Of a DNA stretch of 64,000 nt, positions 9,150-47,899 are shown in pieces (the stretch's first letter is position 1; every line of letters starts with the position of its first letter). A model generated the notes under the pieces. That model saw only the letters and a list, made by a program, of their open reading frames with translations. It was not told where the DNA came from and did no database searches. This DNA is from an uncultured Allobosea sp. GTDB lineage: Bacteria > Pseudomonadota > Alphaproteobacteria > Rhizobiales > Beijerinckiaceae. A program made the position numbers and the translations under genes. The stretch spans positions 1-64,000 of the forward strand of contig NZ_CAMFJF010000002.1 in NCBI RefSeq assembly GCF_945956895.1, written 5' to 3'.

Positions 9150-10091
9150 ATGACGGATACCGCCGGTACCCTCCGCGATCTGACGCTCGCAACGACGAGG
9201 TTGCGTCCCATTCTCGACGAGCTCGCCCGGCTCGAGACGCAGCTTCCAGACATACCTGATGATCAGGAGCGCCATGCCGCGCTGCTCGAGCGGCTCCCGC
9301 CACTCCTCGATCTGCGCGGCCGGGCGTTGGTTCATGCGCAGCAGTACGAGCGCTTCCTCGCGCTCGCCGAGGCCGATCCCTCCGCCCTCGAGGACCGCGT
9401 CAACACCGGTAATGCGCTCGCAATCCTTTCGCATGCCGCGGAGATTGCGATGCTGCTCGTGCCGCCGGGCTCTCCCGAGGACGACTTCGCACGAGCCATG
9501 CTGGCGAAGGAGCGGGCCCGACAGTACCGCGCCGATGGCGACGGCCGTCACGATCCAGCGCTGATGAAACGTGCGCTGCGGGCGACCGTTCGGTCGGGCG
9601 GCATGCGGCTGGTGATCGGCGCGCGCATTCCGGTCGGCATGGAGATGGCGGCACGACGCTTCCGCGGGGAAGTCCTGCCGGAACGGGACGAGAACGAGAC
9701 CGGTCCCGGCGTCTACCACCTCGAAGACGCGCATGCGCTGGAGACCTGGTTCAACGCGCCTCCGGATCTCACAGCCTTGCTCGACAATACATGGCGCCTC
9801 TTCGCCGCCATCGACGCCTGGTCGGAGCCCGTGCAGCCCGGGCCGTCCTGGTACGCGGCCCGGCGCGGTGCTCTGATCCTCGCCTATGCCCGGCTCTGCC
9901 GCATCGGGCTGTGGCCGGCACGCAGCTCCGGCCACCTGGTCGCGAAGATGGAGGTAGAGCGGCTCGTCTCCGGACGCACCGCCGATCCCGATTTCATGCG
10001 GGCCCTCGTCGAGATCGCGCTCGGCGTCGGGCGCCGCATCGCCCGGCAGGGGCCGCCCTTCGTGACGGTTCTCGGCGGCGTCGAGCTGTGA
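9150..10091 (+). CDS. Four-copy island family protein, member 4 (313 aa)
   Basis: A paralogue of the gene at 8078, with ALAILSHAAEIAMLLVP, FNAPPDLTALLDNTWRLFAA and GALILAYARLCRIGLWPARS as matching blocks. An upstream in-frame extension exists, but the ATG at 9150 matches the start of member 3 and lies at the expected distance from the leader. It ends 8 bases before the AAA ATPase gene, so unlike the other members it is not followed by a terminator and is likely co-transcribed with the ATPase. That link suggests the family may partner an AAA machine (inference). Confidence 0.75.
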   Translation: MTDTAGTLRDLTLATTRLRPILDELARLETQLPDIPDDQERHAALLERLPPLLDLRGRALVHAQQYERFLALAEADPSALEDRVNTGNALAILSHAAEIAMLLVPPGSPEDDFARAMLAKERARQYRADGDGRHDPALMKRALRATVRSGGMRLVIGARIPVGMEMAARRFRGEVLPERDENETGPGVYHLEDAHALETWFNAPPDLTALLDNTWRLFAAIDAWSEPVQPGPSWYAARRGALILAYARLCRIGLWPARSSGHLVAKMEVERLVSGRTADPDFMRALVEIALGVGRRIARQGPPFVTVLGGVEL

Positions 10092-39269: not shown

Positions 39270-42743
<3,474 letters not shown>

Positions 42744-42866
42744 GTCCCGCTCCTGTCGCCGCGATCGGGCGACTCGTCGACCCTGTCCTTATACGCCTCT
42801 TATGCGTCCTGGGCGGGGCCGGCGTCGAGGCCTTGCGGCCCCGTCTGTGGATGGCTCCTGCCGTCC

Positions 42867-42977
42867 TCAGACATGCGGGCCGGAGAGGATCGCGGCCCAG
42901 AGCCAGATCATGCCGAGGAAGACGCCGAGCGAGGCGATCTCGGCGAGGCCGGCGGCGAATTTACGCGCTGCAGTCAT
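42867..42977 (-). CDS. SOS-controlled small single-pass membrane protein (36 aa)
   Basis: The frame starts MTAARKFAAGLAEIASL and ends ILSGPHV. One hydrophobic helix covers about residues 14-32 with a basic N-terminus, so an inner-membrane location with the N-terminus inside is expected. The ribosome site AGGAGGT (42982-42988) is perfect at 4-5 bases from the ATG. Two LexA boxes and a promoter lie just upstream (42991-43033). It resembles in size and control the SidA division inhibitor of Caulobacter, but I see no sequence similarity to it; the function as a damage-induced division or membrane inhibitor is inference. No dnaE-related role is implied. Confidence 0.75.
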   Translation of the reverse strand: MTAARKFAAGLAEIASLGVFLGMIWLWAAILSGPHV

Positions 42978-42990
42978 GAGAACCTCCTGT

Positions 42991-43033
42991 GTTCGCGATA
43001 AGTTCAGCTTAGTTCTCTTTTTGTTCTCGTCAA
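42991..43033 (-). promoter_or_regulatory. SOS promoter with two LexA boxes
   Basis: Read on the minus strand: -35 TTGACG (43028-43033), 16-base spacer, -10 TAAGCT (43006-43011). The spacer is filled by the box GTTC-TCTTTTT-GTTC (43012-43026 on the plus strand). A second box GTTC-GCGATAA-GTTC lies at 42991-43005, over the expected transcription start. GTTC-N7-GTTC is the LexA site of alphaproteobacteria. LexA bound here would block RNA polymerase. Confidence 0.8.
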
Positions 43034-43263
43034 TGTCGATACGGAAGCTGGCAGGGCGTTCCCGGCGCGGCGGTTAATGAAATGCTACCTGCATTCTGAG
43101 ATGGTGCCGGCGATCAGGGGCGCCGCTCTGGGATCGCACCGCCCTGTCATGGTCGGGCTTGTCCCGCCGCCCACGTCTTCCTTCGATGAAGGCGGCGTTC
43201 AAGACCGGGATGCTCGCCACGAGGGCGAGCATGATTCAAGGTCGCTCCCGGTCAGAAGCCACC

Positions 43264-43398
43264 TTTGTCATTCCGGGGCAGGCCGCAGGCCTGAACCCGG
43301 AACCCACGACCGGGTGATGCCTTCGATGCCCGAATGCAAGCCGCTCACCTAGTCGTGGGTTCCGGGCTCTTCGCTGCGCGAAGCCCCGGAATGACAAA
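43264..43398. repeat. Long palindromic dispersed repeat, family A, copy 2
   Basis: 135 bp with TTTGTCATTCCGGGG at one end and CCCCGGAATGACAAA at the other. Read on the opposite strand it matches the copy at 19370-19504 over most of its length, including the CTTCGCG loop region and the GGGTTCCGGGTTC arm. Confidence 0.85.
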
Positions 43399-43438
43399 GA
43401 CAGAGCTGGCAAGAAACGACTTGGCGGACGCCCGCCAC

Positions 43439-44125
43439 CTACAGCTTGACGACCAACCCGTCTCGAATCGTGACCTGCCGGTCCATCTGGCGGGCGAGTT
43501 CGAGATTATGCGTCGCGATCAACGCCGCCAGTCCCGAAGCGCGCGCCAGCGCCATCAACGTGCCGAAGACATGCTGCGAGGTATGCGGATCGAGATTGCC
43601 AGTCGGCTCGTCGGCCAGCAGCAGGCGCGGGCCGTTGGCGACGGCGCGGCCGATGGCGACGCGCTGCTGCTCGCCGCCGGACAATTCGCCCGGCAGGTGG
43701 TCGAGCCGCCCGCCAAGGCCGAGGAAGGTCAGCAGTTCCGAGGCGCGCTCCTCGGCGGTCTGGCGCGAGAGGCCGCGGATGCGCTGCGGCAGCACCACGT
43801 TCTCCAGCGCCGTGAACTCGGGCAGAAGATGGTGGAACTGGTAGACGAAGCCGATCTCGGTGCGGCGGAGCCGCGTGCGGCCCTTGTCGTCGAGCTTGGT
43901 CGTGGCGAGCCCACCGACGAAGACCTCGCCGGCATCGGGCTTCTCGAGCAGGCCGGCGACATGCAGCAGCGTCGACTTGCCGGTGCCGCTCGGCGCGACC
44001 AGGGCAACGACCTCGCCCGGCCAGAGTGCGAAATCGGCCTTGCGCAACACTTCGAGCGGCGCATCGCTTTGCGGGTAATAGCGCTCGACCTGGGAGAGGA
44101 AGAGCGCGGGCATTTCCTGTGCCAT
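43439..44125 (-). CDS. lolD: Lipoprotein-releasing system ATP-binding protein (LolD)
   Basis: An ABC ATPase of 228 residues: Walker [10 protein letters not shown], signature [14 protein letters not shown], Walker [18 protein letters not shown]. With LolC-type permeases it releases outer-membrane lipoproteins from the inner membrane. It follows the permease gene by 4 bases. Confidence 0.95.
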
Positions 44126-44129
44126 CGCC

Positions 44130-45422
44130 TTAGCCCATCCTCAGCGCTTCGACCGGATCGAGGCGCGCCGCCTTCCAGGCCGGATAGAGCGTCGCCAGGA
44201 GCGACAGGGTCAGCGCCATCAGCACCACGCTCACCACCTCGCTCCAGTCGGTGACGGAGGGGATGTCGCTGAGGAAGCGCACGGTCGGGTCCCAGAGATT
44301 GGCGCCGGTGATCCAGTTCAGCGCCGCCATGATCGACTTGATGTTCTTGGCGAAGACGACGCCGAGAGCGAGGCCGGCGAGCGTGCCGAAGACGCCGATC
44401 GCCGCCCCGGTGATCAGGAAGACGCGCAGCACCGTGCCGCGCGTGCAGCCCATGGTGCGCATGATCGCGATATCGGCGGTCTTGTCCTTCACCAGCATGA
44501 TCAGGCCGGAGACGATATTCAGCGCCGCGACCAGCACGATCAGCGTCAGGATGATGAACATCACGTTCCGCTCGACTTCCAGAGCATTGAAGAAGCTGCG
44601 ATTCCTCTGGCGCCAGTCGGAGAGCACCAGCGGACGCGGCGCATCGGCCTCGATCGCGTCACGGACGGCCTGGGTCTTGTCGGGATTGTCGACGAAAATC
44701 TCGATGACGTTCACGTCGCCGTCGCGATTGAAATAGGCCTGCGCCTCGGCGAGCGGCATGTAGACGAAGGTGCCGTCGAACTCTGTCATGCCGATCTCGA
44801 AGATCGCCTTGACCGGATAGGCCTTGATCCGCGGCGCCGTGCCGAAGGGTGTCGAGGCTCCCTGCGGAGAAACCAGCGTCATCATGTCGCCGGCCTGGAT
44901 GCCGAGCGCATTGGCAAGCCTTCGGCCGATGGCGACGCCGGGCGTTCCGCCATCGAAGCCATCGAGCGTGCCGGACTTGATGTTGCCGCCGATGAAGGGG
45001 ATCGCCTTGATGTCGCTCTCGCGGACGCCGCGCACCAGCACGCCATTGTTGCCGGTCTGCGAGGAGGCGAGCGCCTGCCCCTCGACCAACGGAATGGCGA
45101 GCTTGATGCCGGGAATCTTGCTGAGCCTCGCCGCGACGCTGTCGTAATCGTCGAGCGGGCGGTCGATCGGCGTCGCGAAGATATGGCCGTTCACGCCGAC
45201 GATCTTGCTGAGCAACTCGATCCGGAAGCCGTTCATCACCGACATCACGATGATCAGCGTCGCGACGCCGAGCATGATGCCCAGGAACGAGAAGCCGGCG
45301 ATGACCGAGACGAAACCCTCGCGGCGGCGCGTGCGCAGATAACGCCCGGCAAGCAGCCATTCGAAACCGGCGAAGGCCTTGGTCCCGGTCGGGACTTCGG
45401 CGCTGTCGGCGACGGCGCTCAT
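44130..45422 (-). CDS. lolC: Lipoprotein-releasing ABC transporter permease (LolC/LolE)
   Basis: 430 residues with a membrane segment near 35-60, a large periplasmic domain ([30 protein letters not shown]-like), and three membrane helices at the C-terminus ([56 protein letters not shown]). This is the LolCDE permease layout; one permease gene suggests a homodimer, as in many alphaproteobacteria. Confidence 0.93.
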
Positions 45423-45442: not shown

Positions 45443-45556
45443 AGCCCTCATCCTGAGGAGCGCCGCAGGCGCGTCTCGAAGGATGCTCCAGGAGGCTCCG
45501 GAGGCATCTGGAACATCCTTCGAGACGCCGCTTCGCGGCTCCTCAGGATGAGGGCT
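45443..45556. repeat. Palindromic dispersed repeat, family C, copy 1
   Basis: 114 bp bounded by AGCCCTCATCCTGAGGAG and its inverted form, with CGTCTCGAAGGATG / CATCCTTCGAGACG inner arms. The same element occurs at 47783-47899. Confidence 0.85.
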
Positions 45557-47711: not shown

Positions 47712-47782
47712 GCGGCCAGCGTTAGCGGCTGGACCGGAAGACGACAAGCCTTCTCAGGGGCTTGGCGGCCCGCACTCCCCGC

Positions 47783-47899
47783 AGCCCTCATCCTGAGGAG
47801 CAGCCCAAGGCTGCGTCTCGAAGGATGCTTCAGGAGGCTCTGGAAACATCTGGAACATCCTTCGAGACGCCGCTGACGCGGCTCCTCAGGATGAGGGCT
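47783..47899. repeat. Palindromic dispersed repeat, family C, copy 2
   Basis: 117 bp with the same AGCCCTCATCCTGAGGAG ends and CGTCTCGAAGGATG inner arms as the copy at 45443-45556. Confidence 0.85.

Follow-up and report, generated by a model that had tools for sequence, protein, structure and literature searches.

The window, by which we mean the whole 64,000-nucleotide stretch of contig NZ_CAMFJF010000002.1 that was analysed, contains on its minus strand a 36-codon open reading frame (ORF), MTAARKFAAGLAEIASLGVFLGMIWLWAAILSGPHV, at 42867..42977. Its ATG lies at 42977 and the frame ends at 42867; the ribosome-binding site AGGAGGT (42982..42988, minus strand) is found 4 nt 5' of the ATG, and the short frame behind it is present as the initial annotation had reported. 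Downstream, on the same strand, is dnaE (39270..42743), which encodes the DNA polymerase III α subunit (Pfam DNA_pol3_alpha) and is the conserved neighbour of the peptide ORF on that side. Upstream, again on the minus strand, are the genes for an ABC ATPase (43439..44125) and an FtsX/MacB permease (44130..45422), lolD-like and lolC-like, which we take to be lolD and lolC, respectively. The peptide has one hydrophobic stretch, with a maximum 17-residue Kyte-Doolittle mean of 2.11, and the single transmembrane helix claimed earlier agrees with hydropathy, the one property used for this prediction. The genome holds a single clear copy of the peptide, a second match (E 1.3) being judged to be chance. 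At E ≤ 1, Pfam returned no family for any of the four family peptides examined, the window peptide among them, and two weak NCBIfam matches, each obtained with a single member out of 18 (E 0.11 and 0.36), were also judged to be chance.

Two perfect GAAC-N7-GAAC sites lie on the minus strand before the ribosome-binding site: a proximal LexA box, GAACTTATCGCGAAC (GTTCGCGATAAGTTC at 42991-43005), and a distal one, GAACAAAAAGAGAAC (GTTCTCTTTTTGTTC at 43012-43026). Six bases lie between them and they are 21 bp apart start to start, about two turns of DNA. A -35 element, TTGACG (43028..43033), and a -10-like element of weak consensus, TAAGCT (43006..43011), both on the minus strand, enclose a 16-nt spacer that contains the 15-nt distal box, and the proximal box follows the -10 element at the expected transcript start. 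TTGACG is identical, and TAAnnT retained, in all nine loci of the genus that were read. The arrangement noticed initially, with two perfect GTTC-N7-GTTC motifs six bases apart, one inside the promoter spacer and the other at the expected start, is found at these positions. A strict consensus scan of 42700-43440 called no sigma-70 promoter, which we attribute to TAAGCT being poor as a -10 element.

Single perfect boxes are common: the window contains four against 1.38 expected, a number reached in 7 of 100 shuffles, and the genome contains 87, compared with 65 occurrences of the reversed pattern used as a control. In the window, the boxes at 970-984 and 9681-9695 both fall within long reading frames and appear to be chance occurrences. 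The exact 36-bp double site is the sole match without mismatches in the window, where 0.29 matches with up to three mismatches are expected and one other, with three, was found; inspecting the genome's box list by eye, we saw no second pair of boxes in the same orientation and within 30 bp of each other. A lone box is weak evidence; the exact pair stands out. We also observed GTTC-N7-GTTC upstream of three further genes of this genome, namely 84 bp upstream of recA (box end to GTG start), 71 bp upstream of lexA (box start to ATG) and directly upstream of a Peptidase_S24 (UmuD-like) gene. From these positions we conclude that the motif marks SOS genes in this genome, in keeping with its earlier designation as a LexA site, and excerpts of a published study describe it as the mark of SOS genes in Caulobacter (PMC9578287). 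Besides recA, lexA and the peptide ORF, four ORFs closely follow perfect boxes in this genome (L286:1058-1477 (-), L284:907-1488 (-), L020:1085-1480 (-) and L288:1528-1800 (+)); they encode the UmuD-like Peptidase_S24, a member of the 2'-5' RNA ligase family and two products without a Pfam match, and are candidate SOS genes.

Searching 199 genomes of the family with the single peptide sequence gave matches at E ≤ 1 in 85, most of which were judged to be chance, and 14 matches below 1e-3, ten of them, the window's own counted, in the same genus. Nine of the ten genus loci (L045, of different length, was dropped) align without gaps and give a pN/pS of 0.36, a value lower than in any of 300 column shuffles. 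Boxes were counted in 26 of 30 family loci (L054, L056, L059 and L060 were dropped): in the 120 bp upstream of the start, every one of the 26 shows a site that departs from the motif at no more than one position, and 19 of them show a perfect site; a pair of sites spaced by 21 bp, each with no more than one mismatch, is present in 14. A letter-shuffled control (one round) gave any site in only one of the 26. E13 and W27 are invariant across the 18 family peptides from which we made a first profile, A1. The initial annotation had suggested looking for the boxes and the peptide upstream of dnaE in relatives, and both are conserved there. With boxes and peptide conserved, a pN/pS of 0.36 and the same motif before recA and lexA, the peptide ORF is a real gene. 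Seven of the 26 loci, from two genera, have no dnaE match within the 1.5-kb flank and keep both sites and sequence: a perfect box is present in all three loci of one genus (L046, L048, L050), and two one-mismatch sites 21 bp apart are present in three of the four loci of the other (L047, L049, L053, L058). In one of these genera the unit is flanked by what we take, from the translations, to be lytic transglycosylase and gamma-glutamyltransferase genes.

Profile A1 matched 45 of 297 genomes of the order and five of 385 across the class, and since it failed across the class we turned to a search by synteny. In 30 of the 32 loci read from the A1 matches in order and class, the peptide is followed by dnaE in the same orientation, and lolD and lolC are found in the flank of 16 and 15, respectively. 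For sampling that did not depend on the peptide, dnaE was located first, in 108 of 111 genomes of the order, and 107 upstream stretches were examined (G230, with a truncated start, was left out). Within 600 bp, the dnaE strand carries a perfect GAAC-N7-GAAC in 54 of these stretches and lacks it in 53, against 0-1 for each of 11 other permutations; in 49 of the 54 boxed stretches, an ORF of 24-60 amino acids with a membrane helix lies 15-150 nt behind the box. A same-strand match to a lolD-like gene was found in 62 of the 107. The class sample was a non-random choice of 70 of the 183 genomes with dnaE (the 30 best-scoring and 40 chosen for larger genomes); 11 of the 70 stretches have the perfect box (permutations 0-2), each followed by a membrane ORF. 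The antisense pattern, GTTC-N7-GTTC, is present in 8 of the 107 stretches from the order and in 4 of the 70 from the class, which exceeds the permutation controls (0-1 and 0-2, respectively).

Alignment of the peptides shows a common core that approximates xDxAALxAxxxFxxxxxxW. A wider profile, A2, was made from 38 peptides, namely the window's, that of Caulobacter and 36 of the other 59 aligned; five of the 38 were shortened N-terminally, and three of those were given a front M that is absent from the DNA there. A2 matched 142 of the 297 order genomes, representing 61 of 123 genera, and 15 of the 385 genomes across the class, three of these from the window's own order. At a profile score of at least 20 bits, in samples that overlap the training set, matches upstream of dnaE were found on the dnaE strand in 52 of 107 order and 10 of 70 class stretches, and on the other strand in none. 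Ninety-two of the matched order genomes contribute no row to A2; the first 80 of these by handle number served as an out-of-sample test, and one without a dnaE match left 79. In 74 of the 79, the best peptide match of the whole genome precedes dnaE by no more than 1 kb and shares its strand; the match-to-match gap is 74 to 653 bp (median 188 bp). The test is less independent for sequence than for position because many of the genomes share a genus with A2 rows. The five exceptions, with the match on another contig or strand, all belong to genus g104. Peptide matches in this genus (family f24) lie away from dnaE and have an in-frame stop in G266, G301 and G420; they are chance matches or decaying copies. 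Outside the window's family, 13 of 58 loci have two sites 11 bp apart, forming GAAC-N7-GAAC-N7-GAAC (no more than one mismatch in either site); this kind of doubling is distinct from the 21-bp spacing seen within that family.

Four named Caulobacter genomes were found through a search for the surface-layer protein, and dnaE was then located in them. In all four, dnaE is closely preceded by a 29-amino-acid ORF, which itself follows a perfect box; the ORF is identical in two genomes and has one and two substitutions in the other two. Its end is 29-36 bp from the likely dnaE ATG (counted by eye), and its promoter region contains, besides the perfect box, two one-mismatch sites (identified by eye). 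In C. crescentus NA1000, the neighbour of sidA is presumably dnaE as well. Extracts of the literature describe SidA as a 29-amino-acid, SOS-induced inner-membrane protein whose target is FtsW (PMC4211646), and sidA as CCNA_02004 (PMC10769358). From its length, its LexA boxes and its locus in four Caulobacter genomes other than NA1000, we infer that the 29-amino-acid ORF is SidA.

The relationship between the two peptides is visible at the level of profiles. A profile of 60 non-Caulobacter peptides gives the Caulobacter ORF 22.8 bits, compared with 15.2 for the best of 20,000 shuffles. The window peptide, scored with a profile from which its own family was left out, reaches 22.7 bits, the best of 20,000 shuffles being 15.3. 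Of 1,047 natural membrane stretches, four outscore the Caulobacter ORF and all four are family peptides; the best unrelated stretch reaches 8.7 or 9.1 bits, depending on the profile. Like SidA, the window gene has LexA boxes in its promoter, encodes a peptide of about 30 residues with one helix and lies just upstream of dnaE. There is low direct identity between the window peptide and the Caulobacter ORF (17%), and they differ in length (36 versus 29 residues), in the family-invariant E13 and W27, which are A and V in Caulobacter, in an acidic residue that is shifted along the helix and in their sites, with two perfect boxes 21 bp apart in the window versus one perfect and two one-mismatch sites (by eye) in Caulobacter. 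The likeness to SidA nevertheless holds as homology at the same locus. The initial annotation had proposed a SidA-like, LexA-controlled checkpoint peptide that would be new; the SidA likeness stands, now with a profile match and a shared locus, but given this homology the peptide is not a wholly new one and belongs with SidA.

From these observations, we hypothesize that the ORF is this organism's sidA, encoding a division inhibitor of the SidA family under LexA control, a reading to which we assign a probability of about 77%. LexA control and SidA homology are based on sequence and synteny; division arrest through FtsW would follow from what is known of the Caulobacter protein, whose mode of action we apply to the window peptide because of the homology. 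Excerpted accounts state that Caulobacter SidA blocks a late step of division, the favoured model being that FtsW/FtsI/FtsN are kept inactive (PMC4211646), that loss of lexA in Caulobacter causes extreme filamentation through sidA (PMC12700426), that mitomycin C is a strong inducer of PsidA (PMC5189948) and that low-confidence models place SidA on FtsW (PMC13396833). By analogy, in an undamaged cell of the present organism LexA would occupy the two phased sites, over the promoter spacer and the transcription start, and so block the promoter, which is followed by a strong ribosome-binding site. Upon DNA damage, RecA would bring about self-cleavage of LexA and the peptide would be synthesized, entering the inner membrane as one helix with its N-terminus (R5, K6) inside. 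It may then bind the septal synthase complex (FtsW, with FtsI/FtsN) as Caulobacter SidA does, and the complex would stay inactive until repair. In this organism the peptide would be expected to be induced by damage, to insert into the membrane, to bind FtsW and to arrest division, and its most likely role is that it is made after DNA damage to restrain division.

Several known proteins resemble the window peptide in part. YneA of Bacillus, SosA of Staphylococcus and ChiZ of Mycobacterium are likewise SOS-induced membrane proteins that block division; they are larger than the window peptide, YneA and ChiZ having a LysM domain and SosA an extended region. TisB and DinQ are likewise small hydrophobic SOS peptides, and TisB is a membrane-damaging peptide with antisense RNA control. 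DinQ is also described, in the published text available, as membrane-damaging and controlled by an antisense RNA (PMC3567139), and YneA is reported to target FtsW (excerpt of PMC13396833). DidA of Caulobacter, which binds FtsN, is also a small, single-helix, damage-induced division inhibitor, but it is 71 amino acids long, SOS-independent and controlled by DriD (excerpt of PMC4211646), whereas the window gene encodes 36 amino acids and has LexA boxes. SulA of E. coli is a division inhibitor under LexA as well, with FtsZ as its target (same source); the window peptide has no Pfam match at E ≤ 1, the SulA family included.

The peptide could have another job among LexA-controlled small membrane proteins, either damaging the membrane in the manner of TisB and DinQ or inhibiting FtsN like DidA. 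SOS regulons contain several small single-helix peptides that hydropathy alone cannot separate, and DinQ is described in part of its report as a toxic single-pass inner-membrane SOS peptide (PMC3567139). We nevertheless consider this unlikely: the peptide shares homology and locus with the Caulobacter ORF, and it is present as one copy in the genome and lies mostly beside dnaE, unlike a mobile toxin. Its very constant place upstream of dnaE, seen in 74 of 79 out-of-sample genomes and in 49 of 54 boxed stretches, would also suit a leader peptide or attenuator, that is, an ORF which tunes dnaE transcription or translation under SOS and whose amino-acid sequence is secondary. The spacer between ORF and dnaE is GC-rich and structured (z -2.26; 5 of 200 shuffles equally stable), as such a function would have it. 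Against this, the amino acids are under selection, as the pN/pS indicates, and the gap to dnaE ranges over 74-653 bp; because the seven family loci without dnaE in the flank keep the unit and its sites, we regard a leader function as very unlikely. The abundance of single perfect boxes could be taken as a sign that a chance ORF lies under fortuitous GTTC repeats, but peptide, boxes and place are all conserved, which refutes this reading and leaves it a negligible probability. The assignment as sidA is the one we retain.

SidA is a kind of protein that is already known; of this member, its reach and its fixed locus we found no report in print among the open-licence papers searched, in the portions available. 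In the same literature SidA is described only for Caulobacter, text matches to 'SidA' in Bradyrhizobium, Rhodobacter and tailocin papers being 'Sidak'. Neither Pfam nor NCBIfam, scanned with four and 18 peptides, respectively, has a model that covers a SidA-family peptide. We lean slightly towards the broader view that an ancestral alphaproteobacterial SOS division checkpoint, consisting of a SidA-family peptide that annotation is prone to miss because of its size, lies between lolCD and dnaE across much of the class and has been kept beside the gene of the replicative polymerase. Why the gene stays in this adjacency is a question that lends itself to immediate testing; a possible reason is, for example, shared read-through, by which division arrest and polymerase supply would rise together. 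With the profile and the fixed locus, other alphaproteobacteria can be searched for their SOS division inhibitor, and the family supplies many natural variants of an inhibitor of the septal machinery of about 30 residues, with which its action can be mapped.

Intergenic repeats are also found near the locus. A 62-nt element occurs at 45443-45556 and 47782-47899 of the window, in copies of 94% identity that are 2.3 kb apart and overlap 57-nt inverted arms, and separate 55-nt inverted arms lie between lolD and the peptide promoter (43263-43399). These palindromic repeats look like dispersed REP-like elements.
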